A stretch of DNA of 32,031 bases from Methylophaga sp. (GTDB taxonomy: Bacteria > Pseudomonadota > Gammaproteobacteria > Nitrosococcales > Methylophagaceae), in assembly GCA_026988435.1 (NCBI GenBank), contig JALSLH010000059.1:1-32031 (forward strand), given 5' to 3'. Below are positions 1 through 12,794 of the stretch, one piece after another. Numbering within the stretch: the stretch's first letter is position 1; each line of letters opens with the position of its first letter. The notes beneath the pieces were generated by a model. The model made no database searches and was not told the origin of the DNA. It saw nothing but the letters and a program-made list of their open reading frames with translations. Both the position numbers and the translations under genes were made by a program.

Positions 1-1
1 G

Positions 2-745
2 TTATATACAGCTCATAAACTTAGACAGATAACCAGTCAAATATATCGGTATGCGATTGCAATAGGCAAAGCCACCAGCAACCCCGCTGATGCACTTATT
101 GGAGCACTACCACCCGCTAAGACAAAACATTACGCAACGCTTACCGATCCTCGTGCTGTGGGTAAATTGATGCGAGATATAAACAGCTATAAAGGTACGT
201 ATGTTGTGTGCTGTGCATTGAGGCTTGCACCTTACGTTATGTCACGCCCCGCCAATATTGCACAAGCAAAATGGGAACATATTGATTTAGATAAAGCAGA
301 ATGGCGCATACCAGTAGAAAACATGAAAGGCGACCAGCAGCATATTGTGCCTTTATCAAAACAAGCACTGGTTATTCTAAAAGGTATTCATCCTTTAACG
401 GGAACAGGTGAATATGTGTTCCCTAGTAACCGTTCAGATAAAAAGCCCATGAGTATTGATACATTAAGATCGGCTCTTCGTCGTTTGGGGTATGGCAAAG
501 GCGAAATCACTACACACGGTTTTAGAGGCATGGCTTCAACCATGCTAAATGAGCAAGGCTATAATTCTGACTGGATAGAAAAGCAATTAGCCCATGTGGA
601 AGGTAACTCAGTAAGAGCCGCTTATAACCACGCGCAACACATGCCAGAACGTAAAAAAATGATGCAGGCGTGGGCGGATTATCTTGATGGTTTGGCTGGT
701 GGTGCGGATATAGTATCAATTCACCGTGAAGGTAATAACGTGTAG
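2..745 (+). CDS. int: P4-type tyrosine recombinase/integrase (5'-truncated by window edge)
   Basis: The frame is open from base 2, so the true start lies outside the window. What is visible is the end of the core-binding domain and the whole catalytic domain of a phage-type tyrosine recombinase. An arginine in MSRPANIAQAKW, the box HGFR, a histidine in LAHVEG and the nucleophile tyrosine in AAYNHA appear in the expected R-HxxR-H-Y order. The family cuts and rejoins attachment sites, usually in a tRNA or other conserved gene. The gene points into the element, the usual arrangement next to the left attachment site. A strong hairpin follows the stop codon. It appears intact as far as it can be read. 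Confidence 0.9.
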   Translation, partial: LYTAHKLRQITSQIYRYAIAIGKATSNPADALIGALPPAKTKHYATLTDPRAVGKLMRDINSYKGTYVVCCALRLAPYVMSRPANIAQAKWEHIDLDKAEWRIPVENMKGDQQHIVPLSKQALVILKGIHPLTGTGEYVFPSNRSDKKPMSIDTLRSALRRLGYGKGEITTHGFRGMASTMLNEQGYNSDWIEKQLAHVEGNSVRAAYNHAQHMPERKKMMQAWADYLDGLAGGADIVSIHREGNNV

Positions 746-779
746 TTTCAGGGATGTTTTTGTTATGGACAATATTGCA

Positions 780-810
780 TCGGGGCTGGTGGTACCAGCA
801 CCAGCCCCGA
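780..810 (+). other. GC-rich hairpin after integrase
   Basis: Bases 780-790 (TCGGGGCTGGT) are perfectly complementary to 800-810, giving an 11-bp stem with a 9-base loop that contains the palindrome GGTACC. It lies between the integrase stop and the next ribosome binding site (AGGAG at 832-836). There is no T-run, so a classical intrinsic terminator is unlikely. It may be a processing or recombination-related structure. Confidence 0.6.
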
Positions 811-845
811 CTAATCAAAACCAAAGCTAACAAGGAGCTTTAATA

Positions 846-1202
846 ATGACTAAAAACGATTGTAACAAGATAAATAAGACGGGCAAGAAAACATGCTTAT
901 ATGGGGCAAACCTACAGGGTATTTTCCCTGTAACAGATTTTTTATTTGACCCAATAACAGACAGTCAATTACATATTGTTTATACAGGATCTAAAGATCA
1001 CGATCCCATTCATATTGTTGTTGCAGAAAAAGACAGCACTGCATATTCACTTAATGTAAAAGATGCAATCAGGTCAAAAGACTTTGTTGCTCGATTGGGT
1101 GATGACGATAAAGAAAAATTAACTAATCTGGCATCTTTAGTTCTACCTAAAGCAGATTATTCTAATTTTGTATGGCGAAATGTGATGGTAGGGGGTAACT
1201 AA
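846..1202 (+). CDS. hypothetical protein, 118 aa
   Basis: A good ribosome binding site (AAGGAG at 831-836) precedes this ATG. The protein is soluble, of mixed charge, without a signal peptide, membrane segment or motif I recognise. The sequence around residues 47-60 alternates polar and hydrophobic residues like a beta strand. Its stop codon TAA shares its last A with the ATG of the next small reading frame (TAATG at 1200-1204), which implies translational coupling. It lies between integrase and replication genes, where small accessory or control proteins are common. Function unknown. Confidence 0.6.
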   Translation: MTKNDCNKINKTGKKTCLYGANLQGIFPVTDFLFDPITDSQLHIVYTGSKDHDPIHIVVAEKDSTAYSLNVKDAIRSKDFVARLGDDDKEKLTNLASLVLPKADYSNFVWRNVMVGGN

Positions 1203-1382
1203 TGGAATTTCCAAATGACGTACTTAGTGCAAGGCTCAATCAAGCCTCAGCCATGCTGAATGTCGTATTATGGTGGAGGGATCGAATCGTTTGAGGAATT
1301 AAGCACTGAGATCAAGGATTACTATCTTTATGCAATGTCAACATTGCTAGATGAAGCGATTAAGGCAAGCAAAGAGATATAA
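1202..1382 (+). pseudogene. small ~59-aa gene interrupted by a +1 frameshift
   Basis: The ATG at 1202 overlaps the upstream stop. The first frame reads MEFPNDVLSARLNQASAMLN and then stops early (TGA at 1292-1294) after about 30 residues. From about 1270 the adjacent frame continues sensibly with YGGGIESFEELSTEIKDYYL and an alpha-helical tail, ending at TAA 1380-1382. Removing one base near 1270 gives one 59-residue helical protein, and the 181-nt span fits exactly one extra base. This may be a true mutation, a sequencing error or programmed frameshifting. Function unknown. Confidence 0.5.
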
Positions 1383-1390
1383 CAGTTATT

Positions 1391-1453
1391 TACCAAGCCT
1401 AGCCCGACGGGGCGAAAGCGGGGCACATTCACCCGTTGGCTTGGTATTTTTTT
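1391..1453 (+). terminator. intrinsic terminator with branched stem
   Basis: TACCAAGCC (1391-1399) pairs perfectly with GGCTTGGTA (1438-1446), and a run of seven T follows at 1447-1453. Inside are a second 5-bp stem (1407-1411 with 1432-1436) and a GC-GAAA-GC mini-hairpin (1412-1419). It would end transcription of the integrase-side genes. Because it stands only 28 bases before the next ATG it could also act as an attenuator for that gene. Confidence 0.7.
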
Positions 1454-1480
1454 GAATGGGCGAGGGAGCGATTATTCCGT

Positions 1481-2176
1481 ATGAGTGAGTATATTCCACC
1501 AAAAAGAAGAGCTTTGAAAAGCAAAACAGGTAAGGTGCGAGAGGGTATTACCCACACAAAAGGTACAACACATTTCTCAACAGAGTGCAATAAAGATGCT
1601 GAAGAAATAGCCGCACTTTTAGATGCAATACCTGCACCCAAGGAAATGGTGCTAGATTATATTGTTGAACTTGAGAATTTTGCAAAAAGGCAATTAGAAC
1701 TGGCAGGTTTTAATTATGAAAATAGGCATTCTAAAGAGCTTACATATACATTATCCAATGGCAAAAAAGGAAATTTGGCTGCTGCTATCAAGGATAATGA
1801 GCTTGAGCCTGAATGGTATGCGTATGAAATACTTATGCAAGCAAGAATGCTCAGAAATTTTATTAAGGAAGAGGACTTATATAATGCTCTACGCCATGCA
1901 ATGTTAATGGAGGGTGCGAGAGAGGGGCTTAATTTTTCTCATTATGAGCTAATGGTGCTAATTGGTGACGAGGTTATAGCCAAAGGTTCTCGTTCTGCCA
2001 AATTTACCAGTCAAGAGAAAAATGGCTGGCTCTCACAAGCTAAGCAATTAAGAGGCGCCAATGGAAACTTAAAATATTCAGATATTGCTAGAAGCATAAT
2101 AAAAAGTAATGGCTTAGAAGAAAAGAGTTTTCAAACAGTTTATAAATATCTACTTGCAAATAAAGAAAAAATGTAA
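1481..2176 (+). CDS. hypothetical element protein, 231 aa
   Basis: The start is placed at ATG 1481, preceded by AGGGAG at 1464-1469. An upstream in-frame TTG at 1436 would lie inside the terminator stem and is rejected. The N-terminus is basic (PPKRRALKSKTGK) and likely disordered. The rest is predicted helical and the C-terminal third (YSDIARSIIKSNGLEEKSFQTVYKYLL as key segment, about residues 196-222) resembles a helix-turn-helix layout, so DNA binding is possible. I do not recognise the family. Its stop codon overlaps an ATGTAAA/TTTACAT inverted repeat at 2171-2191. Confidence 0.6.
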   Translation: MSEYIPPKRRALKSKTGKVREGITHTKGTTHFSTECNKDAEEIAALLDAIPAPKEMVLDYIVELENFAKRQLELAGFNYENRHSKELTYTLSNGKKGNLAAAIKDNELEPEWYAYEILMQARMLRNFIKEEDLYNALRHAMLMEGAREGLNFSHYELMVLIGDEVIAKGSRSAKFTSQEKNGWLSQAKQLRGANGNLKYSDIARSIIKSNGLEEKSFQTVYKYLLANKEKM

Positions 2177-2191
2177 AGGTATCGTTTACAT
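2171..2191. repeat. inverted repeat ATGTAAA-N7-TTTACAT
   Basis: Two 7-base arms, 2171-2177 and 2185-2191, are perfectly complementary and lie at the end of the 231-aa gene, about 60 bases before the AlpA-like gene. The same half-site sequence, ATGTAAAG, forms the ends of the larger palindrome in front of the Fic gene at 6549-6577. A shared operator is possible, but spacing differs (7 versus 15 bases). Confidence 0.45.
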
Positions 2192-2204
2192 TTGTACCAA
2201 ATAC

Positions 2205-2248
2205 TATCTTGTAAGCCTCTATAAAACAAAATAAGAGGCTACAAGATA
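2205..2248 (+). promoter_or_regulatory. RBS-occluding inverted repeat / operator of the AlpA-like gene
   Basis: TATCTTGTAAGCCTCT (2205-2220) pairs with AGAGGCTACAAGATA (2234-2248) over 15 bp with one bulged A. The downstream arm contains the AGAGG ribosome binding site and ends on the first base of the ATG at 2248. In RNA this hairpin would hide the start of translation; as DNA it has the size of a repressor operator. Both readings make it a control point for the replication genes. Confidence 0.6.
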
Positions 2249-2445
2249 TGTCAGAACAAATCATAAAACTACCAGAAGTTAAAAAAATTACGAAATTAAG
2301 CAGCTCTTCGGTATACAGATTAGGGGCCTTGGGCTCCTTCCCAAGGCCAATAAAATTGGGAACCCGTTCTAGTGGGTGGGTCTTTGCGGAAGTGCAGGAA
2401 TGGCTAAATGAAAGGATAGCCGCCTCTCGTAAGGAGGTGGCGTAA
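2248..2445 (+). CDS. alpA: AlpA-family helix-turn-helix regulator
   Basis: This 65-residue protein has the compact winged HTH of AlpA/Cox-type excisionase-regulators. It begins with the contact segment IIKLPEVKKITKLSSSSVYR, continues with FPRPIKLG and has the wing W-F-E-V-x-W-L near the C-terminus. AlpA proteins in P4-like elements activate integrase or control excision and replication genes. The gene opens the element's replication operon; its start codon lies at the base of a large inverted repeat (2205-2248), suggesting tight control. Its TAA overlaps the next ATG (TAATG at 2443-2447). Confidence 0.85.
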   Translation: MSEQIIKLPEVKKITKLSSSSVYRLGALGSFPRPIKLGTRSSGWVFAEVQEWLNERIAASRKEVA

Positions 2446-2795
2446 TGAGCCCAAACATCAAGAAAACCAAACGCATTAGATTGGCTGGGCTTGTTGCTCA
2501 AAACCTTACGATAGAACAAAGGGTACTACTTGAAGCCTTGCTGGAATACGGCGTTGCAAGAGTGATAGAGTTCGAACAATCAGGTATCGCAAGAAGGCCA
2601 CTTTTACCTATAGCTGAATCACTGGTTGCCCTAGGCCACCATGTTTATACGGAGGTTGAGCTAGATGAACAAGGTAGAGAAATAGAAGAAAGCCGAATTT
2701 TCTATATGGATGACTGCTCATTTATAACAGAAAGACGGCTAGGCATGCCCGAAGCTGTATCTATACCCGATGCAAATATTGATTTTGTAGCATAG
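2445..2795 (+). CDS. hypothetical protein coupled to AlpA-like regulator, 116 aa
   Basis: The start codon shares one base with the stop of the AlpA-like gene and an AAGGAGG ribosome binding site lies within the end of that gene, so the two are probably translated together. The protein is small, acidic in its second half and lacks membrane segments. Residues 22-40 (TIEQRVLLEALLEYG) and 52-66 look helical. I do not recognise the family. Position between regulator and primase suggests a role in replication control, but this is only inferred from context. Confidence 0.6.
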   Translation: MSPNIKKTKRIRLAGLVAQNLTIEQRVLLEALLEYGVARVIEFEQSGIARRPLLPIAESLVALGHHVYTEVELDEQGREIEESRIFYMDDCSFITERRLGMPEAVSIPDANIDFVA

Positions 2796-2808
2796 GGGGG
2801 GTGAAGCT

Positions 2809-3231
2809 ATGACAATCAATTTTGATGATGTACGCCCTCACGAACAAGGCAACTGGCTAAATATACTCAGCCATATTACCCCGTCATTATCTGAAGCTAT
2901 CGAAAAGCACCCAAAGCATGTTCCTTGCCCCGTTCATGGGGGTAAGGACGGCTTCAGGCTATATCGTAATGCTGATGATACTGGTGGCGGGATATGTAAT
3001 ACATGCGGGGCATACCCTGATGGCTTTGCCCTAATAGCGTGGATAAATCACTGGACATTGCCCGATAGTTTACAGGCTGTTGCTGATTATCTTGGTATTA
3101 CAACCACCAGCAAAACGCCTAAACCTATCGTAAAACAATCACCAGTGATCGACGATCCGATAAAAGAGGCCAAACGATACGATATAAGCAAAATGCACTT
3201 AATGCCGTTAAATGCGGGCTGGTGGGCTTAG
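2809..3231 (+). pseudogene. P4-type primase, N-terminal zinc-binding part (frameshifted)
   Basis: The 140-residue product has the primase zinc ribbon: C40-P-V-H43, then C63-N-T-C66, followed by the conserved helix DGFALIAWI. The family makes RNA primers on single-stranded DNA and belongs to plasmid and satellite replication modules. A purine-rich site (GGGGGGTGAAG, 2796-2806) precedes the ATG. The frame then runs out into PLNAGWWA and stops, while the adjacent frame carries the missing linker and the Toprim domain. One base lost in the A-run at 3190-3193 explains this; a fifth A would restore a protein of 343 residues across 2809-3839. Confidence 0.75.
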
Positions 3232-3839
3232 ATGACGAAATTGCTCAACCGGCAAGAAATTACCTTATTAATCGTGGATTGGGGGAGGTATTGAAGTCGT
3301 TACCCGATGATTTACATTTTCACCCTACCTTATCTTATTGGCATGATGGCAAAGAGTATGGCAATTTTCCTGCATTAGTGGCACTTATACGCAACAAAGA
3401 GGGTAAACCGATCACCTATCACCGCACCTACTTAAACCAATCAGGCCATAAAGCGGATTTACCCACCGTTAAGAAAATGATGCCACCGATTAAGCAAGGT
3501 GCAACAAAAGGCGGGGCTATCCGCTTATATCCTGCAATAGATGAATTAATAGTGGCAGAGGGCATAGAAACAGCATTAGCCCTGCATATTTCATTAAATA
3601 AGCCAGTATGGGCATGTATTAGTGCTGGTGGTCTTGAATCGGTCGTTATTCCCTCAAGTGTAAAGCGGGTAATCATTGGTTCAGATAACGATCTAAACGG
3701 TACAGGTCAACGTGCAGCTAACATACTAGCAAAAAGGCTAATTGATGAAGATAGCACGCGAGAGGTAAAGATTATCACACCCGAACAAGCGGGAACCGAT
3801 TGGCTTGATGTATTAATTGAACAGGAAAAAGTAGCATGA
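3222..3839 (+). pseudogene. P4-type primase, C-terminal Toprim part (frameshifted)
   Basis: Upstream of the GTG at 3222 the frame continues sensibly back to about 3189 (QNALNAVKCGLVGLDDE), which shows it is the second half of the primase rather than a new gene. The Toprim catalytic elements are present: glutamate in IVAEGIETALAL and the acidic pair in IIGSDNDLNGTG. The end overlaps the next gene (ATGA at 3836-3839). If GTG 3222 were used it would give a separate Toprim protein of 205 residues that lacks the zinc finger. Whether the two halves still cooperate cannot be told from sequence. Confidence 0.75.
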
Positions 3840-5410
3840 GCGACGATATTAAAAAAGCAGTAAGCAAGGCGAAACCGATACAGGCAGACAATGTGGAAGA
3901 GTTATGGCCTACACCTAAACCACTTCCTGATATTACCGCCAGCGGTGATGCTGATGGCTTCCCGTTTGAGGCTTTACCACCAGCACTTATGCAAGCAGCG
4001 GAAGAAATCGCGCGATTTAGTAAGGTTCCTTTAATGGCTCCCGCTGTTTCTGGATTGGGTGTATTAGCTACTGCGTTAGGTAAAAAAGCCTTTATTGTTG
4101 AGCGTGATGGGCATGAGCTTTTTGCTACTTTCTTTTTTGTGCTGGTAGCGGGGACTGGTGAGCGGAAAAGCCCCGTATTTAAGTATATGGTCAAGCCGTT
4201 AAATGATTGGGAGCTTGCACAAGATAAAAACCACGCTAAAGAAGTCAGGATGATACAGAACAATAATGAAATGCTTGAAATCGGTATAAAGAAAATCAAA
4301 GCGCAATCAGCTAAAGATGATGCCAATTTAGAAGAGCTAAACGAAAGCATCGAGCAGGCCGAGCAAAAAAAACGGTCGATACCCCCAATACCCTCCCTTT
4401 ATACGCTTGATATTACCGAAGAGAAGCTATTCCAAAAGATGTACGAACGTGGCGAAACGTATGCCGTGATGAGTGCAGAAAGTAGGCGGGTTATGGAATC
4501 TTTGATGGGGAGCGGTCGAGGTGGAATGGGTACAGGTGATAATCTGTATTTGTCAGGATTTTCAGGGGATAAGGTATCAAGGGATCGCGTCGGTTCAGGT
4601 GATGGAGGTGAAGAATTGGTGATGTACGAGCCCAGCTTGAACCTGACCACAATGATACAACCTGATAAATTTTTATCACTAGCCGGAAATAAGGAGTTAA
4701 AAGCATCGGGATTAATTGCTAGATTATGGCCTGTTTGGTTACCATCATTAGTAGGTAGCCGTTTTGAAGAATTAAATGAAGAGGGGTTAAAGTGGGATGT
4801 ATTAGCCCCATTTTATGATCATGTCACTAGCTTCATTGATGCTGTTCAGCCGTTAAATGAACAAGGTGATTTAACCAGGCATAAAGCAGTATTTTCAGGA
4901 GAGGCACAAGAGGCGCGGCTTGACCTTTATAATCGGGTTGAGGGTGCAATGGGTGACGGTAAAGGGCTTGATGATGTGCGTGATATTGCATCTAAGGCAG
5001 TATCTCAAACATGTAAACTAGCGTTAGTGCTTCACCTTGCCACCGATCCCGATTTATTAGCAGATGCCACCAGTGAAATAGACATAACAACATGGACTAA
5101 GGCCGAAGCACTTGGCGGCTTCTTCATGGATGAGGCAATAAGATCACAACGCGGGGCGGAAGATGGGGAGCATTTAAGGCATGCAAAGCGGTTGCTTGAT
5201 TGGTTAAGGATAAAAGGTTATACCGAAATTGGTGCCCGTGAAATTCAACGAAGTGCCCCAAGGCCAAAACTAAGCCGGTCTGAGCTGGTGGATGTGATAG
5301 GTGTACTGACTGAGCCACCGTATCAATGGCTAAAAGAATCAGGAAAAACAGCAAAAGGAAATGCTGTTTATAGTGTTCACCCGTCATTATTTGAAATTGA
5401 GGGCAAATAA
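3836..5410 (+). CDS. DUF3987 replication-associated protein (helicase-like)
   Basis: The 524-residue product matches the DUF3987/YfjI family found beside primases in P4-like islands. A P-loop-like segment AGTGERKSP occupies residues 105-113, with arginine in place of the usual glycine before the lysine. Residues 130-185 form a likely coiled coil. The segment around 205-240 (SAESRRVMESLMG, then DNLYLSGFSGD) and the stretch ending in GLIARLWPVW are family hallmarks. The start overlaps the primase stop by four bases (ATGA), showing one operon. A helicase or DNA-loading role with the primase is inferred. The stop codon lies inside the first 78-bp repeat. Confidence 0.8.
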   Translation: MSDDIKKAVSKAKPIQADNVEELWPTPKPLPDITASGDADGFPFEALPPALMQAAEEIARFSKVPLMAPAVSGLGVLATALGKKAFIVERDGHELFATFFFVLVAGTGERKSPVFKYMVKPLNDWELAQDKNHAKEVRMIQNNNEMLEIGIKKIKAQSAKDDANLEELNESIEQAEQKKRSIPPIPSLYTLDITEEKLFQKMYERGETYAVMSAESRRVMESLMGSGRGGMGTGDNLYLSGFSGDKVSRDRVGSGDGGEELVMYEPSLNLTTMIQPDKFLSLAGNKELKASGLIARLWPVWLPSLVGSRFEELNEEGLKWDVLAPFYDHVTSFIDAVQPLNEQGDLTRHKAVFSGEAQEARLDLYNRVEGAMGDGKGLDDVRDIASKAVSQTCKLALVLHLATDPDLLADATSEIDITTWTKAEALGGFFMDEAIRSQRGAEDGEHLRHAKRLLDWLRIKGYTEIGAREIQRSAPRPKLSRSELVDVIGVLTEPPYQWLKESGKTAKGNAVYSVHPSLFEIEGK

Positions 5411-5483
5411 CCGCGACACCGCGACGGGGTACGCAAGTATTTCAAAAACAGTGTTTTTTATTTTTAGCTGTCGCGGTGTCGCG
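5406..5483. repeat. 78-bp iteron-like module, copy 1 (candidate origin)
   Basis: This copy is identical to 6145-6222. Its ends carry a 15-bp inverted repeat (5411-5425 with 5470-5484), and each arm is itself a doubled heptamer, CCGCGAC-A-CCGCGAC. Between the arms lies an AT-rich stretch with a small AAAAAC/GTTTTT hairpin (5444-5458). GC-rich repeated protein-binding sites around an easily melted core, next to primase and helicase-like genes, is the layout of satellite and plasmid origins. It also overlaps the DUF3987 stop codon. Confidence 0.7.
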
Positions 5484-5517
5484 GTTGAGTAAAAACAAGG
5501 GTTTATGAGGTAACAGC

Positions 5518-5922
5518 ATGAGATCAAGTGCAAAATGGGATGGTTATGGTAGCTATGAAGCCTATATTAATCGTGGGTTAGATGGGTTATTCAGTGCTAA
5601 ACAGCAAGGGAAAGTGGTTACTGATGCTTCTCAACCTATGGCAAGCAGTGAAGATAAACAGCCAGTGCAGCAATCTAAGCCAAAACGGATCAAGCCTAAG
5701 GATGTGCATGACATTGTGGCAAGTTACGCACACCATGAGGGTGATAAACAATGGCTGGTGGATATGCTGTTAAGATTACCCCTTGCCAAACGTGAACCCG
5801 TTATGCTTAGATATAGTCAAGTGTACAATTCAGCACAAAGTGCTGGGGCTGAAATTAACAGCCAAACAGGGCAAGCAAGGTGGGACGCTAATACATGGCT
5901 ACGAGACTATATTGAACAGTAG
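5518..5922 (+). CDS. hypothetical protein between the two repeat modules, 134 aa
   Basis: The gene starts 34 bases after the first 78-bp repeat and ends 222 bases before the second one. The N-terminus (KWDGYGSYEAYINRGLDGLF) is compact, the middle (residues 40-62) is low-complexity and rich in Gln, Lys and Ser, and the C-terminal half is helical, ending DANTWLRDYIEQ. There is no membrane segment. I do not recognise the family. Location immediately downstream of DUF3987 and between putative origin modules suggests a replication or copy-control accessory protein, by context only. Recombination between the two repeats would delete it. Confidence 0.6.
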   Translation: MRSSAKWDGYGSYEAYINRGLDGLFSAKQQGKVVTDASQPMASSEDKQPVQQSKPKRIKPKDVHDIVASYAHHEGDKQWLVDMLLRLPLAKREPVMLRYSQVYNSAQSAGAEINSQTGQARWDANTWLRDYIEQ

Positions 5923-5973
5923 GTGGATAACAGCTAGCCCCTGATATAGCAAGCCTTAACACTACAATTTGAT

Positions 5974-6007
5974 ACCCCTTTATATAGTTAGATTTATCTA
6001 AAGGGGT
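5974..6007. repeat. inverted repeat ACCCCTTTA / TAAAGGGGT
   Basis: Two perfect 9-base arms (5974-5982 and 5999-6007) enclose a 16-base AT-rich loop, just after the 134-aa gene. No T-run follows on either strand, so it is not an obvious terminator. It lies between the two origin-like modules and could belong to that region. Confidence 0.5.
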
Positions 6008-6021
6008 GACTACATTTATAG

Positions 6022-6040
6022 ATAGCTAAACAGCTATTTT
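6022..6040 (+). terminator. short hairpin with T-run
   Basis: ATAGCT (6022-6027) and AGCTAT (6032-6037) form a 6-bp stem with an AAAC loop, followed by TTTTC. It is a weak candidate for the end of the element's replication operon, 100 bases after the last gene. Confidence 0.35.
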
Positions 6041-6144
6041 CTTATTCCCTTACCACTAAATGAACTATTCAGAACGGGTATTAAACTTCCGCAATAAGTA
6101 GCACGTTATTCTGCTTACTTTCAATCCACCTAAAATAATTACTC

Positions 6145-6222
6145 AATAACCGCGACACCGCGACGGGGTACGCAAGTATTTCAAAAACAGTGTTTTTTAT
6201 TTTTAGCTGTCGCGGTGTCGCG
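6145..6222. repeat. 78-bp iteron-like module, copy 2 (candidate origin)
   Basis: All 78 bases match copy 1, in direct orientation, 739 bases away. The terminal inverted repeat is 6150-6164 with 6209-6223, where the last base is A instead of G. Unlike copy 1 it lies in non-coding DNA, so the identity is not explained by coding constraint; recent duplication, gene conversion or strong functional constraint is needed. Confidence 0.7.
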
Positions 6223-6378
6223 ATTGTCGTTCCTTAATCATATCAATCATGCATGATAGGGCTATATGTTTATAGCCTAGGGGTTCCGTCACCCATTAAA
6301 GATAAAAGGTACTGTAAATCAGCGTTGATGTACGGGCATTTCAACTCGCGAGTTTTTCCCAGATATAGAAATCTCAGA

Positions 6379-6463
6379 GGGGGTTGTACTTCCGTTGCCT
6401 AGTGGTAGGGCGGGTAAATAATCCAGCAAGAGCCGCACTGCGTGACCGCCACCCCATCTTGCT
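6379..6463. ncRNA. GC-rich structured segment, possible C4-like antisense RNA
   Basis: The region from 5923 to 6660 is AT-rich except here. GGGGG at 6379-6383 faces ACCCC at 6451-6455, closing a 77-nt unit with internal complementarities (GGGCGGGT at 6408-6415 against ACCGCCACCC at 6445-6454; GCC/GGC around a CTA/TAG pair near 6397-6410). AGCAAGA (6425-6431) also pairs with TCTTGCT (6457-6463), followed by TTTTAT. From memory it resembles the C4/CI immunity RNAs of P1 and P4-like elements, which would suit this island, but the match is not verified and the strand is uncertain. Confidence 0.35.
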
Positions 6464-6548
6464 TTTATGTTTCAGTAATTAAATAGAGAAAGCCCATACT
6501 ATAGAACATGATTAGATTTATGGGTTATCTATACATGACGAGGAGCAT

Positions 6549-6577
6549 ATGTAAAGATAATTGAATTATCTTTACAT
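6549..6577. promoter_or_regulatory. 29-bp perfect palindrome upstream of Fic gene
   Basis: Bases 6549-6562 (ATGTAAAGATAATT) and 6564-6577 are exact reverse complements around a single central G. The palindrome ends 83 bases before the proposed Fic start. Its size and position fit an operator for a dimeric repressor; no T-run follows, so a terminator is less likely. Its ends repeat the ATGTAAA/TTTACAT half-sites seen at 2171-2191. Confidence 0.55.
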
Positions 6578-6660
6578 GAGAAAATACACTTTTATGGACA
6601 ATTTATTGATGTTTCACCCCGTATGTGATTGAATATAAAAAACATATTCAGGACATTTTG

Positions 6661-7827
6661 ATGGACATTTACACCGACAATAATATAAAGCGTATTGAAA
6701 CTAACCAGTTTGGTGTATTCAAGTTCCAGCTTGGGTTAAGTCGAGATGGGATAGAAACTATACTTCGACGGGTTCAAGATGCTCAAGATCGTTTCCGTGT
6801 TTCTCCATTGGCTTCTGTAGCGACACGATTGGAAAAAGAAGTAGTGGTTAGCTCTGTTTTTGGGACAAATACCATTGAGGGTGGAGAGTTATCCGAAGAT
6901 GAAACTGAACAAGCTTTGTTATTGTCACCGGAGCAGATCCAGAATATTCAGCAGCAGCGTGCTTTGAATATTAAAAATGCCTATGAGTATATTAAAGAGG
7001 TATCTGTTTCTAAAGATTGGAATCCCACTGTAGAAGATGTTGTTGAAATCCATCATAGAATTTACGAGGCGTTGGGTGAAGATCAGAGCCAAGGTATATT
7101 TAGAGATAATCCTGATGGAGTAGTGACCAGTGTGGGTAATAGCTCGCATGGTGGAGTATATAAGCCACCACAAAACGGTGCAGATATTCGTTTGCTTTTG
7201 AGTGAATTATTATCTTGGAATGCAGCGCTTTCAGATCAGGGTGTGCCCGCCTTAATTCGCGCACCACTCGTACATTTATATTTTGAGCTTATCCATCCGT
7301 TTTGGGATGGTAATGGGCGTGTAGGTCGGGTTTTAGAGGCCGGCATATTGTATGCCGATGGTTTTCGTTATGCGCCTTTTGCTCAGGCATCCTATTATTT
7401 AACAAATATTGATAAGTATTTTGCCTTGTTTAATTTTTGTCGTAAATCCGCCAATAAGAAACATGATTTTCCAAACGTAGCGTTTGTTTCTTTTTTTCTT
7501 GAGGGGATGCTGGAAACTATTAATGCCTTGCATGATCGCGTAAATAAAATAGTGCAAGTTGTGCTTTTTGAAACACAACTGAAAAACTTATATGACTATA
7601 AAAAGATAAATCATCGGCAATATACAATCGTCAATGAAATTCTTAGAAGTGGAGAGGCAATAACCATTGATAAAATACGCCAATCTATTTGGTATAACGC
7701 CCTTTATAGTAAATTAACAGCTAAAACACGTTCAAGGGATATGAAGCACCTTCTTGATATAGGGTTACTTAATTTAGACGATGAAGGAAATATATTATTT
7801 GGTTTTGTTGGTGAGCATGATGTGTAG
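6661..7827 (+). CDS. Fic family AMP-transferase, class II (N-terminal inhibitory motif)
   Basis: The Fic catalytic loop HPFWDGNGRVGR begins at residue 212, with the catalytic histidine, the acidic residue, the GNGR phosphate-binding turn and the final arginine all present. Fic enzymes usually transfer AMP from ATP to a hydroxyl on a target protein. Residues 69-74 read TNTIEG, the (S/T)xxxE(G/N) inhibitory motif placed before the Fic core as in class II members, so it is probably self-inhibited and needs no separate antitoxin. ATG 6661 is chosen because AGGA precedes it; the upstream GTG 6625 has no ribosome site. The C-terminus after residue 290 looks like a winged-helix domain. It stands alone after the replication module, probably as cargo. 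Confidence 0.88.
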   Translation: MDIYTDNNIKRIETNQFGVFKFQLGLSRDGIETILRRVQDAQDRFRVSPLASVATRLEKEVVVSSVFGTNTIEGGELSEDETEQALLLSPEQIQNIQQQRALNIKNAYEYIKEVSVSKDWNPTVEDVVEIHHRIYEALGEDQSQGIFRDNPDGVVTSVGNSSHGGVYKPPQNGADIRLLLSELLSWNAALSDQGVPALIRAPLVHLYFELIHPFWDGNGRVGRVLEAGILYADGFRYAPFAQASYYLTNIDKYFALFNFCRKSANKKHDFPNVAFVSFFLEGMLETINALHDRVNKIVQVVLFETQLKNLYDYKKINHRQYTIVNEILRSGEAITIDKIRQSIWYNALYSKLTAKTRSRDMKHLLDIGLLNLDDEGNILFGFVGEHDV

Positions 7828-7975
7828 TTATAGGTCCACCTTTAAGAGTAAATTAGATTTACAGTAAAACTATTTTGATGGTAACTATGGTGGTAACTTT
7901 TTAATTAAAAATATTGCGACATAGTAGCCATGTGGGATTGACGCGCAAACTGGGAGGCACCCATAGCCACCATTT

Positions 7976-10057
7976 TTATTCAAAAATTAGTTTATTTTCA
8001 GCAGTTTTTTCTGAAGACAGCAGTTCTATGAGCTTGTTGACGGGTAAAGGTTGAGAAAATAGGTTGCCTTGGACAAAGTCACACCCCGCAGCATAAAGTA
8101 AACGACTCTGCTGCTCCGTTTCGACGCCTTCAGCAATAACTTTAAGACCCAGCTTGTGCGCCATTACTATGATAGCTTCAGATAATGCCATTTCACTGGA
8201 GTCTGTTGATAAGTTTTTAATAAAGGATTGGTCTATTTTTAGGTAATCAATATCAAACTTATTTAGATACGACAAAGAAGCGTAACCTGTTCCGAAATCA
8301 TCAATGGCGACTTGAATGCCAGCGGTTCGAAAATCTAACAATTGTTCAATTACTTGTTTGTCGTCTTTTACAAGTAGACCTTCCGTGATTTCTATTACGA
8401 GATTACAGTTAGAAAAATAGACTTCTGATATTGCAGCCGCCCAATCATTTTGTGCTTTAAATTGAACGGGGGACATATTTACGCTGACTTGAAAATCAGG
8501 ACTATGTTGTTGGAACATCTGAGCGTGTTGAACGGCCTGATGGAATACCCAGTTACCTATTTCATTAATAAGGCCCGTTTCCTCAGCGAGAGGAATAAAA
8601 TCAGTAGGACTAACCATGCCTCTTTCAGGGTGATTCCAGCGTAACAATGCCTCGGCTTTTTGAATTTTCTTCGTGGGCAAATAAATGATGGGCTGATAAT
8701 AGACTTCAAGCTGGTTAAGTGCCAAAGCTTCTCGTAAATCCTGGATAAGGTTAAAACGCTCTGTTGATGAACGCTGCATTTGTTGTGTAAAGTAGAAATA
8801 GCGACTTCGACCTGAATCTTTGGCAAAATACATGGCCTGATCAGCATTTCTAAGAAGATCATCTGCGGTGAGCGCATCATCAGGATATATGGTGATGCCG
8901 ATGCTTGCAGAAATATAAAGAAGATTACCTTCTATTTGGAAGGGGTGATTTAATGCGGTAATGATTTGGTCAGCAACGCGTCCAACCTGGTTAAGGTCAT
9001 TTAAAGTTGGTAGCAGAACGGTAAACTCATCCCCGCCGAAACGTGCTACCAAATCTTCATTTGGTGCAGCGTCAGTAATCCGTTTGCCGGCCTCAAACAG
9101 TAGCTTGTCGCCCACAGGGTGGCCAAAGGCGTCATTGATTACTTTAAAGCCGTCTAAATCAAGGAACAAAACAGCTAAAGGTTTATTGGTGATATTGGAG
9201 TTTTTAATTTCTTCTTCTAAACGATTGTAGAAAAATGTCCGATTAGGCAAAGATGTTAAAGGGTCGTAGCTAGCCTGTTTTAAAGCGAGTAATTCAGCTT
9301 GTCTTTTTTCAGAGATGTCTGAAAATAAGGTAACACGTTGTTTTACTGTTTTGTCTTTATTGTAGATTGTATTAATAGTTGCCCAAATTAGAAATTCTTC
9401 ACCATTTTTTCGGCGGGCCCATATTTCTCCTTTCCAGCATCCATCTAAATCGATGATATTTCGTATTTCTGTTAGAAATTCTGGGTCATAACGTTTGGAA
9501 AGGAGTATCGATGTGGATTCATTTAGAATGTCTGCCTCTGAGAAGCCAGTGATACTTGAAAAAGCAGGATTAATGGCGATGATTTTTCTTTTTGCAGAGG
9601 TGACAATCATTGCTTCACTAGTATGTTGGAAAACAGTAGATGCTAACTGGGCCATCTCCTCCGCTCGCTTGTGTTCAGTGATGTTATTCAAGCTTATTAA
9701 TAGATTGCCCTCTGGCTCAGAGAGAAGAGTTGCATGAGCAGTGACTATTCGGTAATCACCATTTTTACAACGAAGTTCCATTTCTAATGGCTTGAAAGTA
9801 CTATTTTGAAGCCCATCTTTAAGGCACTTGTCCCATAGATCTCTAATTTTACTAGCATATTCTCGATTGGAATATACGGTGGTTTCTCGCTTATCGGGTG
9901 TGGAGATATCTTGAAGGGAATAGCCGAATTGAGCTGTAAAAGCATCATTAACATAAACCGTTTCTTTTTGTTTATTGTGAACAATAAATGGTGTCGGAGA
10001 GGCGCCAAGAATGGTCTGAGCGAGTTGAGTGGTTTCTATAGATAATTCGCTGGTCAT
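7976..10057 (-). CDS. PAS-PAS-GGDEF-EAL cyclic-di-GMP signalling protein, 693 aa
   Basis: Two PAS sensor domains (about residues 12-132 and 135-255) are followed by a diguanylate cyclase domain (260-425; GGDEF at 341-345) and a phosphodiesterase domain (440-685; EAL at 469-471, with DDFGTGYASL, KIDQSFI and AEGVET motifs). Both catalytic sites look complete, so it could make or break cyclic di-GMP. The allosteric inhibition site is lost: the RxxD position reads PNED (332-335). No transmembrane segment is visible, so it is probably cytoplasmic. It is the downstream member of a tandem paralogous pair with the gene at 10251-12794. Confidence 0.92.
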   Translation of the reverse strand: MTSELSIETTQLAQTILGASPTPFIVHNKQKETVYVNDAFTAQFGYSLQDISTPDKRETTVYSNREYASKIRDLWDKCLKDGLQNSTFKPLEMELRCKNGDYRIVTAHATLLSEPEGNLLISLNNITEHKRAEEMAQLASTVFQHTSEAMIVTSAKRKIIAINPAFSSITGFSEADILNESTSILLSKRYDPEFLTEIRNIIDLDGCWKGEIWARRKNGEEFLIWATINTIYNKDKTVKQRVTLFSDISEKRQAELLALKQASYDPLTSLPNRTFFYNRLEEEIKNSNITNKPLAVLFLDLDGFKVINDAFGHPVGDKLLFEAGKRITDAAPNEDLVARFGGDEFTVLLPTLNDLNQVGRVADQIITALNHPFQIEGNLLYISASIGITIYPDDALTADDLLRNADQAMYFAKDSGRSRYFYFTQQMQRSSTERFNLIQDLREALALNQLEVYYQPIIYLPTKKIQKAEALLRWNHPERGMVSPTDFIPLAEETGLINEIGNWVFHQAVQHAQMFQQHSPDFQVSVNMSPVQFKAQNDWAAAISEVYFSNCNLVIEITEGLLVKDDKQVIEQLLDFRTAGIQVAIDDFGTGYASLSYLNKFDIDYLKIDQSFIKNLSTDSSEMALSEAIIVMAHKLGLKVIAEGVETEQQSRLLYAAGCDFVQGNLFSQPLPVNKLIELLSSEKTAENKLIFE

Positions 10058-10250
10058 ATGTTTCTATGCCTATTGTTTTGAGACAAGCATATAATATTAC
10101 AAGCTAGTTTAATATGGAGCATCAATTAGAGCTTGAATATAACATAGAGTTAGCTTTGATTTCAAAGTACTATTGATTGCTCAGATCGCTCGAAACGACG
10201 TTATAAATGATATTGCCAACACTTACTTACAAGCGAAGGGGCTTGCATCA

Positions 10251-12794
10251 CTATGTATCGTCGAGACTCTCAGAACTTAGAAGTGCTTTAAATTCACTGA
10301 CAGGAAGTGGCCTAGAAAATAAATAGCCTTGCACATAGTCACAGCCTGCGGTAGCTAATAAGTCGCGTTGTTGCTCTGTTTCAACGCCTTCTGCAATAAC
10401 TTTCAGGCCTAGTTTGTGTGCCATCACGATGATGGCTTCAGATAAGGCCATTTCACTTGAATCAGGGGTTAAATTTCGAATAAAAGATTGATCTATTTTT
10501 AAGTAATCTATATCAAATTTATTTAGATATGACAATGAAGAATAGCCCGTTCCAAAATCATCAATCGCCACGTGAATGCCAGCATCACGGAAATTTAATA
10601 ATTGCTCAGCTATCAGCTCATTATCTTCCATTAATAAGCCTTCGGTTATTTCAATAATAACATTGCTGCCAGCAAAATATTCTTGGGTTATTACGGAGCT
10701 CCAATCATTTTCATCCCTGAATTGTACGGGTGAGACGTTAATGCTTACTTGAAAGTCAGCATCGTATTGCTGATAAGATTTTGCCTGTTCAGTAGCTTGC
10801 TGAAATACCCAGCTACCAATTTCATTGATTAGGCCTGATTCCTCAGCAAGTGGGATAAATTCAGCAGGGCTTACCATGCCTCTTTCTGGGTGTTTCCATC
10901 GTAATAATGCTTCAGCTTTGTGGATTTTTCCTGTTGGTAAATAAATAATCGGTTGGTAATAAAGCTCTAGTTGATTTTTAGCCAAAGCCACACGTAGATC
11001 ATTGGTTAAGTTGAACCGTTCTAACGATGATTCTTGCATTTGAGGTGTGAAATAGCTGTAGCGGCTTCGACCAGAATCTTTGGCAAAATACATAGCTTGG
11101 TCTGCATTTTTAAGTAGATCATTTACGTTATTAGCATCATTAGGATAAAGCGTAATACCAATACTCGCTGAAATATAGATAGTATTATTCTCTAATTGGA
11201 ATTGCTGGCTTAATGATTTGATAATCTTAGAAGCTATTCGTTCAATGCCATGAACATCATCTAGATCGGATAGAATCACTGTAAACTCGTCACCACCGAG
11301 CCGCGCTACAGTATCGGTATCGCGCACACAATCGGTGATACGCTTGGCGGCCTCAATAAGAAGTTTATCGCCTACCGGGTGGCCAAAAGTATCATTAACG
11401 TCCTTAAATTTATCTAAATCAAGAAAGAATAACGCTAGTGGCTTATTGGAGCGGTTAGACTTTCTAATTTCTTGACCTAAGCGATCGTGAAACATGGTGC
11501 GATTAGGTAACGATGTCAATGTATCATAATAAGCTTGTTTTAATGCCAGCATTTCAGTTTGTTTTTTCTCTGTAATATCAGAGAACAAACCGACGCGTAA
11601 CTTAACAGTATTATCTTCGTTGTAAAGAGTATTGATGGTTAACCAAATGAGGACATCTTCACCTGCTTTCCGTTTGTTCCAAACTTCACCTTGCCATTTT
11701 CCGGTGCGATCAAGCTCCGCATTCATTTCAATATAAAAAGCGGCATCATGCCTATCTGTCATAAATAGTAGAGAAGGCTCGCCTATAACCTCATCTTCAG
11801 AATAACCGGTGAGCTCACAAAAGGCAGGGTTAACTGATGTAATGATTTTTTCTGCATCGGTTGTCAGCATACCCTCACTAGTTTGCTGGAGTATGGTTGT
11901 AGTCAATATTCGTTCTTCTTCTAATTTTTTTCGTTCTGTGATGTCATAAAAGCTAATTAATATATCGCTATCAATGGCATTGAAAAGAAGAGAGGCTTGA
12001 GCCATAACGGTTTTAAATTCGCCATTGTTACAGCATATTGTAATTTCAAGGGGTTCAAAGGCGGAGCCACTTTTTATGCAATCTTCGAGACGCTGTTGCC
12101 AAATTAATCCTATTTGCACACCGTATTCTTTCTCGGGATAAGCCCTATCCTTCCATGTGTCATGATTGGGGATGTCTGCTAAGTTATATCCAAATAAAGC
12201 GATAAATGCTTTATTGAGGAAGACGGGTGTCATTTGGCTGGAGTGAAGTGCAAAAGGTATAGGTGAAGCTTCAATAATGGCACGAGATCCTTGTTCGCTT
12301 TGTCTTAATGCCTCTTCATCTTGTTTACGAGCCGTTAGATCAATATCAATGCAATACATTTCAGGGTTACCATTCCTATCATATTGCATAACGTGGCTAG
12401 AATAGACGTCAATCTGACCGCCTTTAGTTTTTAGTGTTAACTCTGCCGAAGGAATTACTGGGCCACCAGACATCCAATCAGTAATGCCTTCGATTACGAC
12501 ACTTTTCATTTCATCAGGAATAATTAAGTCTTCAATTAATTGGCCCATAGCTTCTTCTTTACTATAGCCATAGAGTTTTTCACTGGCTTTATTCCAAAAT
12601 ACAACGCGACGATCTCGGTCATAGCCTTGAACAGAAATGTTAGGAATACTTTCTAATAGCGACTGAAAGCGCCGCTCACTTTTAAGTAGTAATTTATCCG
12701 CTATGTTTTGAGGTCTTATTTTCCGGTGTAAATGAATTATCCAGATAATAAGAAATAAGCAGCTAATAATAAGTAGGGTTAAAATCAGGTTCAT
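10251..12794 (-). CDS. membrane-anchored PAS3-GGDEF-EAL cyclic-di-GMP protein, 847 aa
   Basis: An N-terminal hydrophobic helix (residues 3-21) anchors the protein to the membrane, followed by positive residues. Three PAS domains follow (about 42-160, 168-290, 295-412), then GGDEF (500-504) and EAL (628-630) domains. The RxxD product-inhibition site is present here as RDTD (491-494), unlike in the neighbouring paralogue. The two proteins are nearly identical in the EAL region (for example SSEMALSEAIIVMAHKLG in both), indicating tandem duplication, with this copy having one extra PAS and the anchor. The 193-bp gap to the downstream copy holds a small CAAGC/GCTTG hairpin at 10230-10245. Confidence 0.92.
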   Translation of the reverse strand: MNLILTLLIISCLFLIIWIIHLHRKIRPQNIADKLLLKSERRFQSLLESIPNISVQGYDRDRRVVFWNKASEKLYGYSKEEAMGQLIEDLIIPDEMKSVVIEGITDWMSGGPVIPSAELTLKTKGGQIDVYSSHVMQYDRNGNPEMYCIDIDLTARKQDEEALRQSEQGSRAIIEASPIPFALHSSQMTPVFLNKAFIALFGYNLADIPNHDTWKDRAYPEKEYGVQIGLIWQQRLEDCIKSGSAFEPLEITICCNNGEFKTVMAQASLLFNAIDSDILISFYDITERKKLEEERILTTTILQQTSEGMLTTDAEKIITSVNPAFCELTGYSEDEVIGEPSLLFMTDRHDAAFYIEMNAELDRTGKWQGEVWNKRKAGEDVLIWLTINTLYNEDNTVKLRVGLFSDITEKKQTEMLALKQAYYDTLTSLPNRTMFHDRLGQEIRKSNRSNKPLALFFLDLDKFKDVNDTFGHPVGDKLLIEAAKRITDCVRDTDTVARLGGDEFTVILSDLDDVHGIERIASKIIKSLSQQFQLENNTIYISASIGITLYPNDANNVNDLLKNADQAMYFAKDSGRSRYSYFTPQMQESSLERFNLTNDLRVALAKNQLELYYQPIIYLPTGKIHKAEALLRWKHPERGMVSPAEFIPLAEESGLINEIGSWVFQQATEQAKSYQQYDADFQVSINVSPVQFRDENDWSSVITQEYFAGSNVIIEITEGLLMEDNELIAEQLLNFRDAGIHVAIDDFGTGYSSLSYLNKFDIDYLKIDQSFIRNLTPDSSEMALSEAIIVMAHKLGLKVIAEGVETEQQRDLLATAGCDYVQGYLFSRPLPVSEFKALLSSESLDDT

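Follow-up and report, generated by a model that had tools for sequence, protein, structure and literature searches.

The window analysed here is a stretch of 32,031 nucleotides from a Methylophaga genome (contig JALSLH010000059.1). It holds most of a mobile element of this Methylophagaceae genome, terminating at a tRNA-Met attachment site (attR). Directly 3′ of the element's gene for a DUF3987 protein, a proposed replicative helicase, lies an 82-bp module in which two tandem iterons and two inverted iterons flank an AT-rich core, and a second copy follows further downstream. We consider it likely that these 82-bp units are the initiator-binding modules of the element's replication origin. Iterons with words specific to each element recur 3′ of DUF3987 genes in other genomes.

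In the mechanism that we propose, the element would first excise at tRNA-Met. The DUF3987 ATPase would then probably dock, via a C-terminal winged helix, onto the CGCGAC words of both arms, open the AT-rich core and load there as a helicase, working with the zinc-ribbon/Toprim primase that the element encodes. The ancestral module would be copy 1, sufficient in single-module relatives, and copy 2 a duplication in one Methylophagaceae lineage that may provide an additional docking site or a helper site, much as in the cis-required region for replication (crr) of phage P4, where a repeat is likewise doubled. Understood in this way, the site is a cis-acting site for replication whose design is known, located at a helicase family without an earlier report of it: no report of iterons behind DUF3987 genes was found in the literature searched, with most subscription journals outside its coverage.

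Anatomy and position of the modules

The two modules form a direct repeat with a start-to-start distance of 739 bp and one mismatch in 82 bp. As the original prediction had described, the copies are identical across 78 bp (5406-5483 and 6145-6222) and contain inverted doubled words around an AT-rich core; their arms extend to 17 bp. Each module consists of doubled CGCGAC words at an 8-bp step, a 44-bp core of 68% A+T, and inverted doubled words, with an arm complementarity of 100% in module 1 and 94% (16/17) in module 2. The words are confined to the modules within the element. The doubled word CCGCGACACCGCGAC, if at most 3 mismatches are allowed, is present at four places of the 32-kb window, each of them inside a module (0.16 occurrences expected), and eight of the 17 CGCGAC in the whole window lie inside modules, these being the only ones within positions 1-7975, the element part. 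A unit scattered through the genome would have spoken against a link to replication, and blastn of the unit against the host genome found these two places only (E ≤ 0.001); relaxing the threshold to E ≤ 0.01 added merely the same palindrome on the opposite strand. Copy 2 is non-coding, as predicted, and overlaps no open reading frame (ORF) of at least 70 aa. Module 1 is not wholly non-coding, because the DUF3987 gene extends over its first five bases (5406-5410).

The position of the module is fixed among close relatives. A sample of 63 genomes of the order, the host's own included, contained a full-length close DUF3987 gene in four (the window's, G008, G048 and G050), and the module starts at its stop codon in all four, which bears out the predicted tie between the module and the replication genes. 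The window and G008 carry two modules; G048 and G050, of another genus and with the element beside tRNA-Cys, carry one, and module 2 was not seen in either. Genome G051 has a DUF3987 fragment, and its 8-kb stretch contains four single CGCGAC and no doubled word, while G060 has distant DUF3987 genes, its one scanned locus (L156) giving merely a weak inverted repeat. No unit was found by blastn in the other 59 genomes of the order; one weak AT-rich match, in G038, was rejected as a chance match within other sequence. Searches for the both-arm pattern in genome contigs, and by blastn for the unit in phages and plasmids, found nothing, and neither a 20-mer of the unit nor a DUF3987 alignment search gave a result in viral contigs. 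The 20-mer was found in the window's own genome only among 369 genomes of the class, a sample that did not contain G008, G048 or G050, and a 15-mer matched at least 120 stretches of viral contigs, which at this length is weak evidence.

The end of copy 2 nearest DUF3987 suggests how the doubling arose. It contains an AATAA with which, in copy 1, the DUF3987 gene closes; copy 1 is therefore probably the ancestral module, from which copy 2 derives. Copy 2 is thus probably a lineage-specific duplicate, present in two of the four full-length elements. The same AATAA, pointing to a local duplication, stands against the notion of a small sequence for transposition or recombination (a miniature inverted-repeat transposable element, a resolution site or a packaging site) that moved into two places. 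Such a sequence would likewise have inverted arms close to its two ends and a second copy with precise boundaries; however, just two copies were found in the genome and the position at the DUF3987 stop is fixed even in another genus, and we regard this origin as highly improbable.

In an alignment of the six modules of the four elements, read by eye, all four iterons are retained in 6/6 modules, and so is the GGGGTA just inside the left arm, whereas 5/6 modules have unpaired arm positions without compensation. Words are kept while pairing breaks, and the words, not a hairpin, therefore seem constrained. This bears on a reading of the arms as an RNA hairpin behind DUF3987 that serves termination or processing and was doubled by chance. 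The strand, folded as DNA, does fold far better than its shuffles (z -7.2), but the loop is 44 nt long, no terminator-like site was found, and in 6 of the 47 iteron clusters of the survey below the words have a single orientation. A function of the arms as RNA accordingly appears very unlikely, and the initiator-binding module remains our preferred interpretation.

The identity of the two copies had also been offered as a pointer to selection, a view that we reject. Across the whole 5201-6200 segment the window and G008 share 98-99.5% identity, so the identity of the copies says little, and the substitutions between these two elements (one within the 164 bp that the copies make up, eight in the 657 bp that separate them) are at about chance level. 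Identity to G008 is down to 59-86% upstream in DUF3987 (3801-5200) and stands at 72-88% in the chromosomal flank (8001-10000). Across positions 1-8000, segments of 96-99.5% identity (1-600, 5201-6200 and 6601-7400) alternate with segments of 39-75%, which indicates a strong recombination mosaic within one element.

Iterons behind DUF3987 genes of other genomes

DUF3987 (Pfam PF13148) was detected in 32/369 genomes of the class (E ≤ 1e-15) and 47/394 genomes of the phylum (E ≤ 1e-25). From the 43 class and 54 phylum rows, 16 partial or low-ranking ones (9 and 7) were left out, and 3 phylum rows duplicated class rows. Of the resulting 78 loci, the window included, L244 was dropped for want of a stop codon in its contig, leaving 77. 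The survey region ran from -100 to +300 around the DUF3987 stop; shuffled sequences and 512 windows drawn from these loci served as controls, and wide flanks were fetched for 40 of the 77 loci, among them 28 of the 47 iteron-positive ones. A cluster was defined as at least 4 copies of one 6-mer including a tandem pair.

Such clusters were present at 47/77 DUF3987 loci (46/76 without the window), against 14/512 control windows and 3/385 shuffles. In a second control, drawn from the wide loci, 36/875 ends of other open frames (at least 150 codons, stop to stop) had a cluster; the difference from the DUF3987 loci gives a Fisher p of about 2e-36, computed over loci that are not independent. After grouping at 50% identity, 26/45 families still show a cluster. 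The median position of the first word is +39, words occur in both orientations in 41/47 clusters, and among 146 same-strand steps of at most 12 bp, 128 measure 8 or 9 bp (98 of 9 bp, 30 of 8 bp). A stricter test, for inverted repeats with internal repeats, marked 28/77 loci, compared with 6/512 windows and 6/770 shuffles, one of the 28 (L204) being an unrelated long repeat, and a tandem word together with an inverted tandem word at 29/77, compared with 7/512 and 1/770. The words themselves differ among loci (CTGACA, GCTAC, CGCA-type, GGCGACA, GGCGCA and others). At the loci most like the window (38-42% identity, seven aligned), the step is 8-9 bp and the spacers measure 39-61 bp with 44-70% A+T; GGGTA or GGGGTA stands behind the first arm in 3/11 loci of the window-like group. 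Two circular plasmids, of 19.2 kb from P. putida (NZ_CP043577.1) and of 18.5 kb from Streptomyces (NZ_CP107792.1), have clusters of at least five copies only at the DUF3987 stop. Their gene tables, which as PLSDB tables are incomplete, list no other initiator, and that of the Streptomyces plasmid includes a primase/polymerase.

The survey also informs the possibility that the modules are operators, at which the orf134 product, AlpA or DUF3987 would bind to control orf134 and downstream genes, with no role as an origin. Paired inverted words are typical operator anatomy, and in each of the four close elements copy 1 separates DUF3987 from orf134. However, the iterons follow DUF3987 though the next gene varies. 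In the window, no gene starts close behind copy 2, the next same-strand ORF of at least 70 aa beginning at 6625, and the sole promoter-like site of 5200-6400 is outside the modules. A profile of orf134 found no homologue downstream of the other 76 loci, in a search of low sensitivity that missed a phrog_852 match in genome G110. We regard an operator function as unlikely and retain the interpretation as origin modules.

The original prediction of a two-part site is upheld in part. The module is doubled in the window and in G008, and single in two of the four close elements. A further tandem pair of the same word occurs within about 1.2 kb at 4/47 loci, the window included (control words 16/2325), and at 6/28 iteron-positive loci with wide flanks (control words 7/555), and in genome G418 a second module, itself complete, stands about 1.06 kb past the DUF3987 stop. 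These counts suggest that module doubling recurs, yet is a minority state. By eye, the module at 9360-9480 of the G418 locus (L257) falls within the coding sequence of the next frame, in its 5′ part, and its words would thus also be translated. Another locus (L193, genome G248) has twelve GTGTTA words downstream of DUF3987, eleven in one orientation and mostly 8-9 bp apart, a different and longer iteron layout.

A candidate reader of the words and resemblance to known origins

The C-terminus of the DUF3987 protein probably reads the modules. Its last 89 residues (about 436-524) are predicted to form a winged helix, with the order helix-strand-helix-helix-strand-strand at a predicted local distance difference test score (pLDDT) of 79, and many winged-helix domains are among the 50 PDB structure matches listed, at modest scores (best E 0.004, template-modelling score about 0.5-0.6). 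The full-length AlphaFold model, at pLDDT 45, was too poor for use, and a PDB sequence search with 39 DUF3987 rows returned a single marginal P-loop match (E 0.013). The available part of PMC5862659 predicts that the DUF3987 family comprises helicases of mobile elements, and suggests that the PolpTN2 and PrimQH primases may recognise origins through their C-terminal winged helices.

PMC7145576, considered here from its available part, served as a source on the replication of P4, of phage-inducible chromosomal island-like elements (PLE) and of Staphylococcus aureus pathogenicity islands (SaPI). The crr of P4 resembles the modules in three respects. It lies next to the helicase gene, 45 bp from the 3′ end of alpha; its type 1 repeats are tandem as well as inverted about a spacer; and its unit lies in two 120-bp direct repeats, as the window's module is doubled. 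The proposed relation to P4 thus holds for the layout and for other shared genes, namely the integrase, AlpA, the int-alpA RNA, and the primase zinc ribbon and Toprim. It does not extend to the helicase. P4 alpha is a single fused protein with D5_N/DUF5906/Pox_D5, whereas the window has a separate protein with only DUF3987 in Pfam, and because a DUF3987 profile has no detectable similarity to alpha (hhalign probability 0.5%, a comparison with a single target sequence and not sensitive) the kinship is limited accordingly. In addition, P4 has an annotated ori elsewhere, while positions 1-7975 of the window contain no further CGCGAC, and the repeat word differs. A Pfam/PHROGs search of the element's ORFs identified no P4-type sid/delta/psu capsid genes, nor any capsid or terminase gene; orf118, orf246 and orf116 have no Pfam or PHROG match at all, and unrecognised capsid-type genes are therefore possible.

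Origins of phage-inducible chromosomal islands (PICIs) share the layout alone, being located directly 3′ of rep and having an AT-rich core flanked by two sets of iterons (PMC6092414, available part). The layout is therefore already described, whereas the original prediction had allowed for an undescribed one. In EcCICFT073, eight GGTAGA words begin 16 bp past pri-rep. Its Pri-Rep is of the D5_N/DUF5906 type, and the window's DUF3987 protein is not a PICI-type Rep; the DUF3987 profile had no detectable similarity to the EcCICFT073 Rep, again in an insensitive comparison with a single target sequence. The same part of PMC6092414 reports that rep-ori drives plasmid replication in PICIs and states that this origin organization is found in no other known bacterial replicon. 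Phage-inducible chromosomal minimalist islands (PICMIs) of Vibrionaceae are like the element in being small and in having an integrase, AlpA and a primase matched by DUF3987/DUF5906 models, but integrate at fis and not at tRNA-Met; deletion of one PICMI primase gene lowers copy number (PMC10803314, available part). The word "iteron" is absent from the main text of PMC10803314.

Several results weigh against the interpretation as origin modules. Thirty of the 77 DUF3987 loci have no cluster; four of these pass the inverted-repeat test (L173, L175, L176 and L185) and at least two more (L180 and L214) have iterons by eye, and others among those viewed have none. An E. coli DUF3987 gene is without a cluster at its stop. 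The cluster definition is one of four settings and was picked for its low control rate; the other three yielded, for DUF3987 and control, 57/77 and 159/512, 45 and 45, and 55 and 84, and the looser settings were set aside because of these control rates. In other DUF3987 groups the spacers are shorter (median 23 bp, 29 loci) and often not AT-rich. Both P4 (next to alpha) and EcCICFT073 pass the cluster test, and the inverted-repeat test marks neither. Iteron word and C-terminus co-vary weakly (partial r 0.15, permutation p 0.008), with a comparison value of 0.105, not permuted, for the ATPase core given the tail; that iteron similarity tracks the C-terminus slightly better than the core weakly supports the C-terminus as reader. 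Finally, the primase at 2809-3839 comprises two overlapping frames in the window and a single 343-aa ORF in G008, and through this frame break or assembly error the present copy of the element may be defective and may not replicate.

A broader proposal, which we hold to be as likely true as false, is that DUF3987 marks a replicon class, large and so far uncharted, with members in Pseudomonadota and on at least one plasmid of Actinomycetota. Its origins would consist of paired inverted iterons of 8-9 bp from the helicase stop codon onwards, and each winged helix would read its own word. The layout would be shared with P4 and PICIs, the helicase would be unrelated, and the window would capture a fresh emergence of the doubled, crr-like state. 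Pfam assigns no function to DUF3987, and the rule of an origin at its own stop, if true, would give the family one. The origins of many islands and satellites would then be readable from sequence, initiator-iteron specificity would be testable over dozens of natural pairs, and the claim of a PICI-only layout, as worded in the available part of PMC6092414, would need qualification.

The element and its neighbourhood

The window starts within the integrase gene, and the left end of the element lies beyond the contig start. In the related G008, the attachment sites are about 8.5 kb apart and tRNA-Met adjoins the integrase. The features of the element and its modules are listed in Table 1.

Table 1. 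Coordinates of the modules and of other element features in the window.
Feature	Positions	Strand	Remarks
Tyrosine integrase, 3′ part	158..745	+	5′ part beyond contig start; full 419 aa in G008
int-alpA RNA (Rfam RF02996)	1392..1459	+	60 bits; gathering 35.8
AlpA regulator	2248..2445	+	Pfam E=1.7e-17
Primase zinc ribbon (Zn_Ribbon_Prim)	2809..3231	+	Frame separate from Toprim part here
DUF7146 + Toprim_3 primase part	3222..3839	+	
DUF3987 protein, proposed replicative helicase/initiator	3836..5410	+	Pfam E=1.4e-58; PHROG DNA helicase E=5.1e-41
Module 1, probable ancestral copy, proposed origin/initiator-binding site	5406..5487	+	Same position in G008, G048, G050
Module 1 left arm	5409..5425	+	Two tandem CGCGAC iterons, 8-bp step
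Module 1 core	5426..5469	none	44 bp, 68% A+T, starts with GGGGTA
Module 1 right arm	5470..5486	-	Two inverted iterons
orf134, small gene between modules	5518..5922	+	phrog_852 (unknown function); homologues in G008, G048, G050
Module 2, probable duplicate	6145..6226	+	Non-coding; with AATAA as at DUF3987 stop; also in G008
Module 2 left arm	6148..6164	+	
Module 2 right arm	6209..6225	-	One mismatch vs left arm
Fic-domain gene, element cargo	6625..7827	+	
attR	7958..7975	none	18 bp, equal to 3′ end of G008 tRNA-Met

In genome G110, some 0.5 kb separates the phrog_852 match from a DUF3987 gene upstream of it. Before the Fic gene, positions 6549-6577 form a perfect 14-bp inverted repeat with a 1-nt spacer (ATGTAAAGATAATT/AATTATCTTTACAT), matched at 93% in G008. 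Directly behind attR (7976-12794), two neighbouring genes look by eye like PAS/GGDEF-EAL genes, and each cross-matches the G008 counterpart of the other at about 71% DNA identity.

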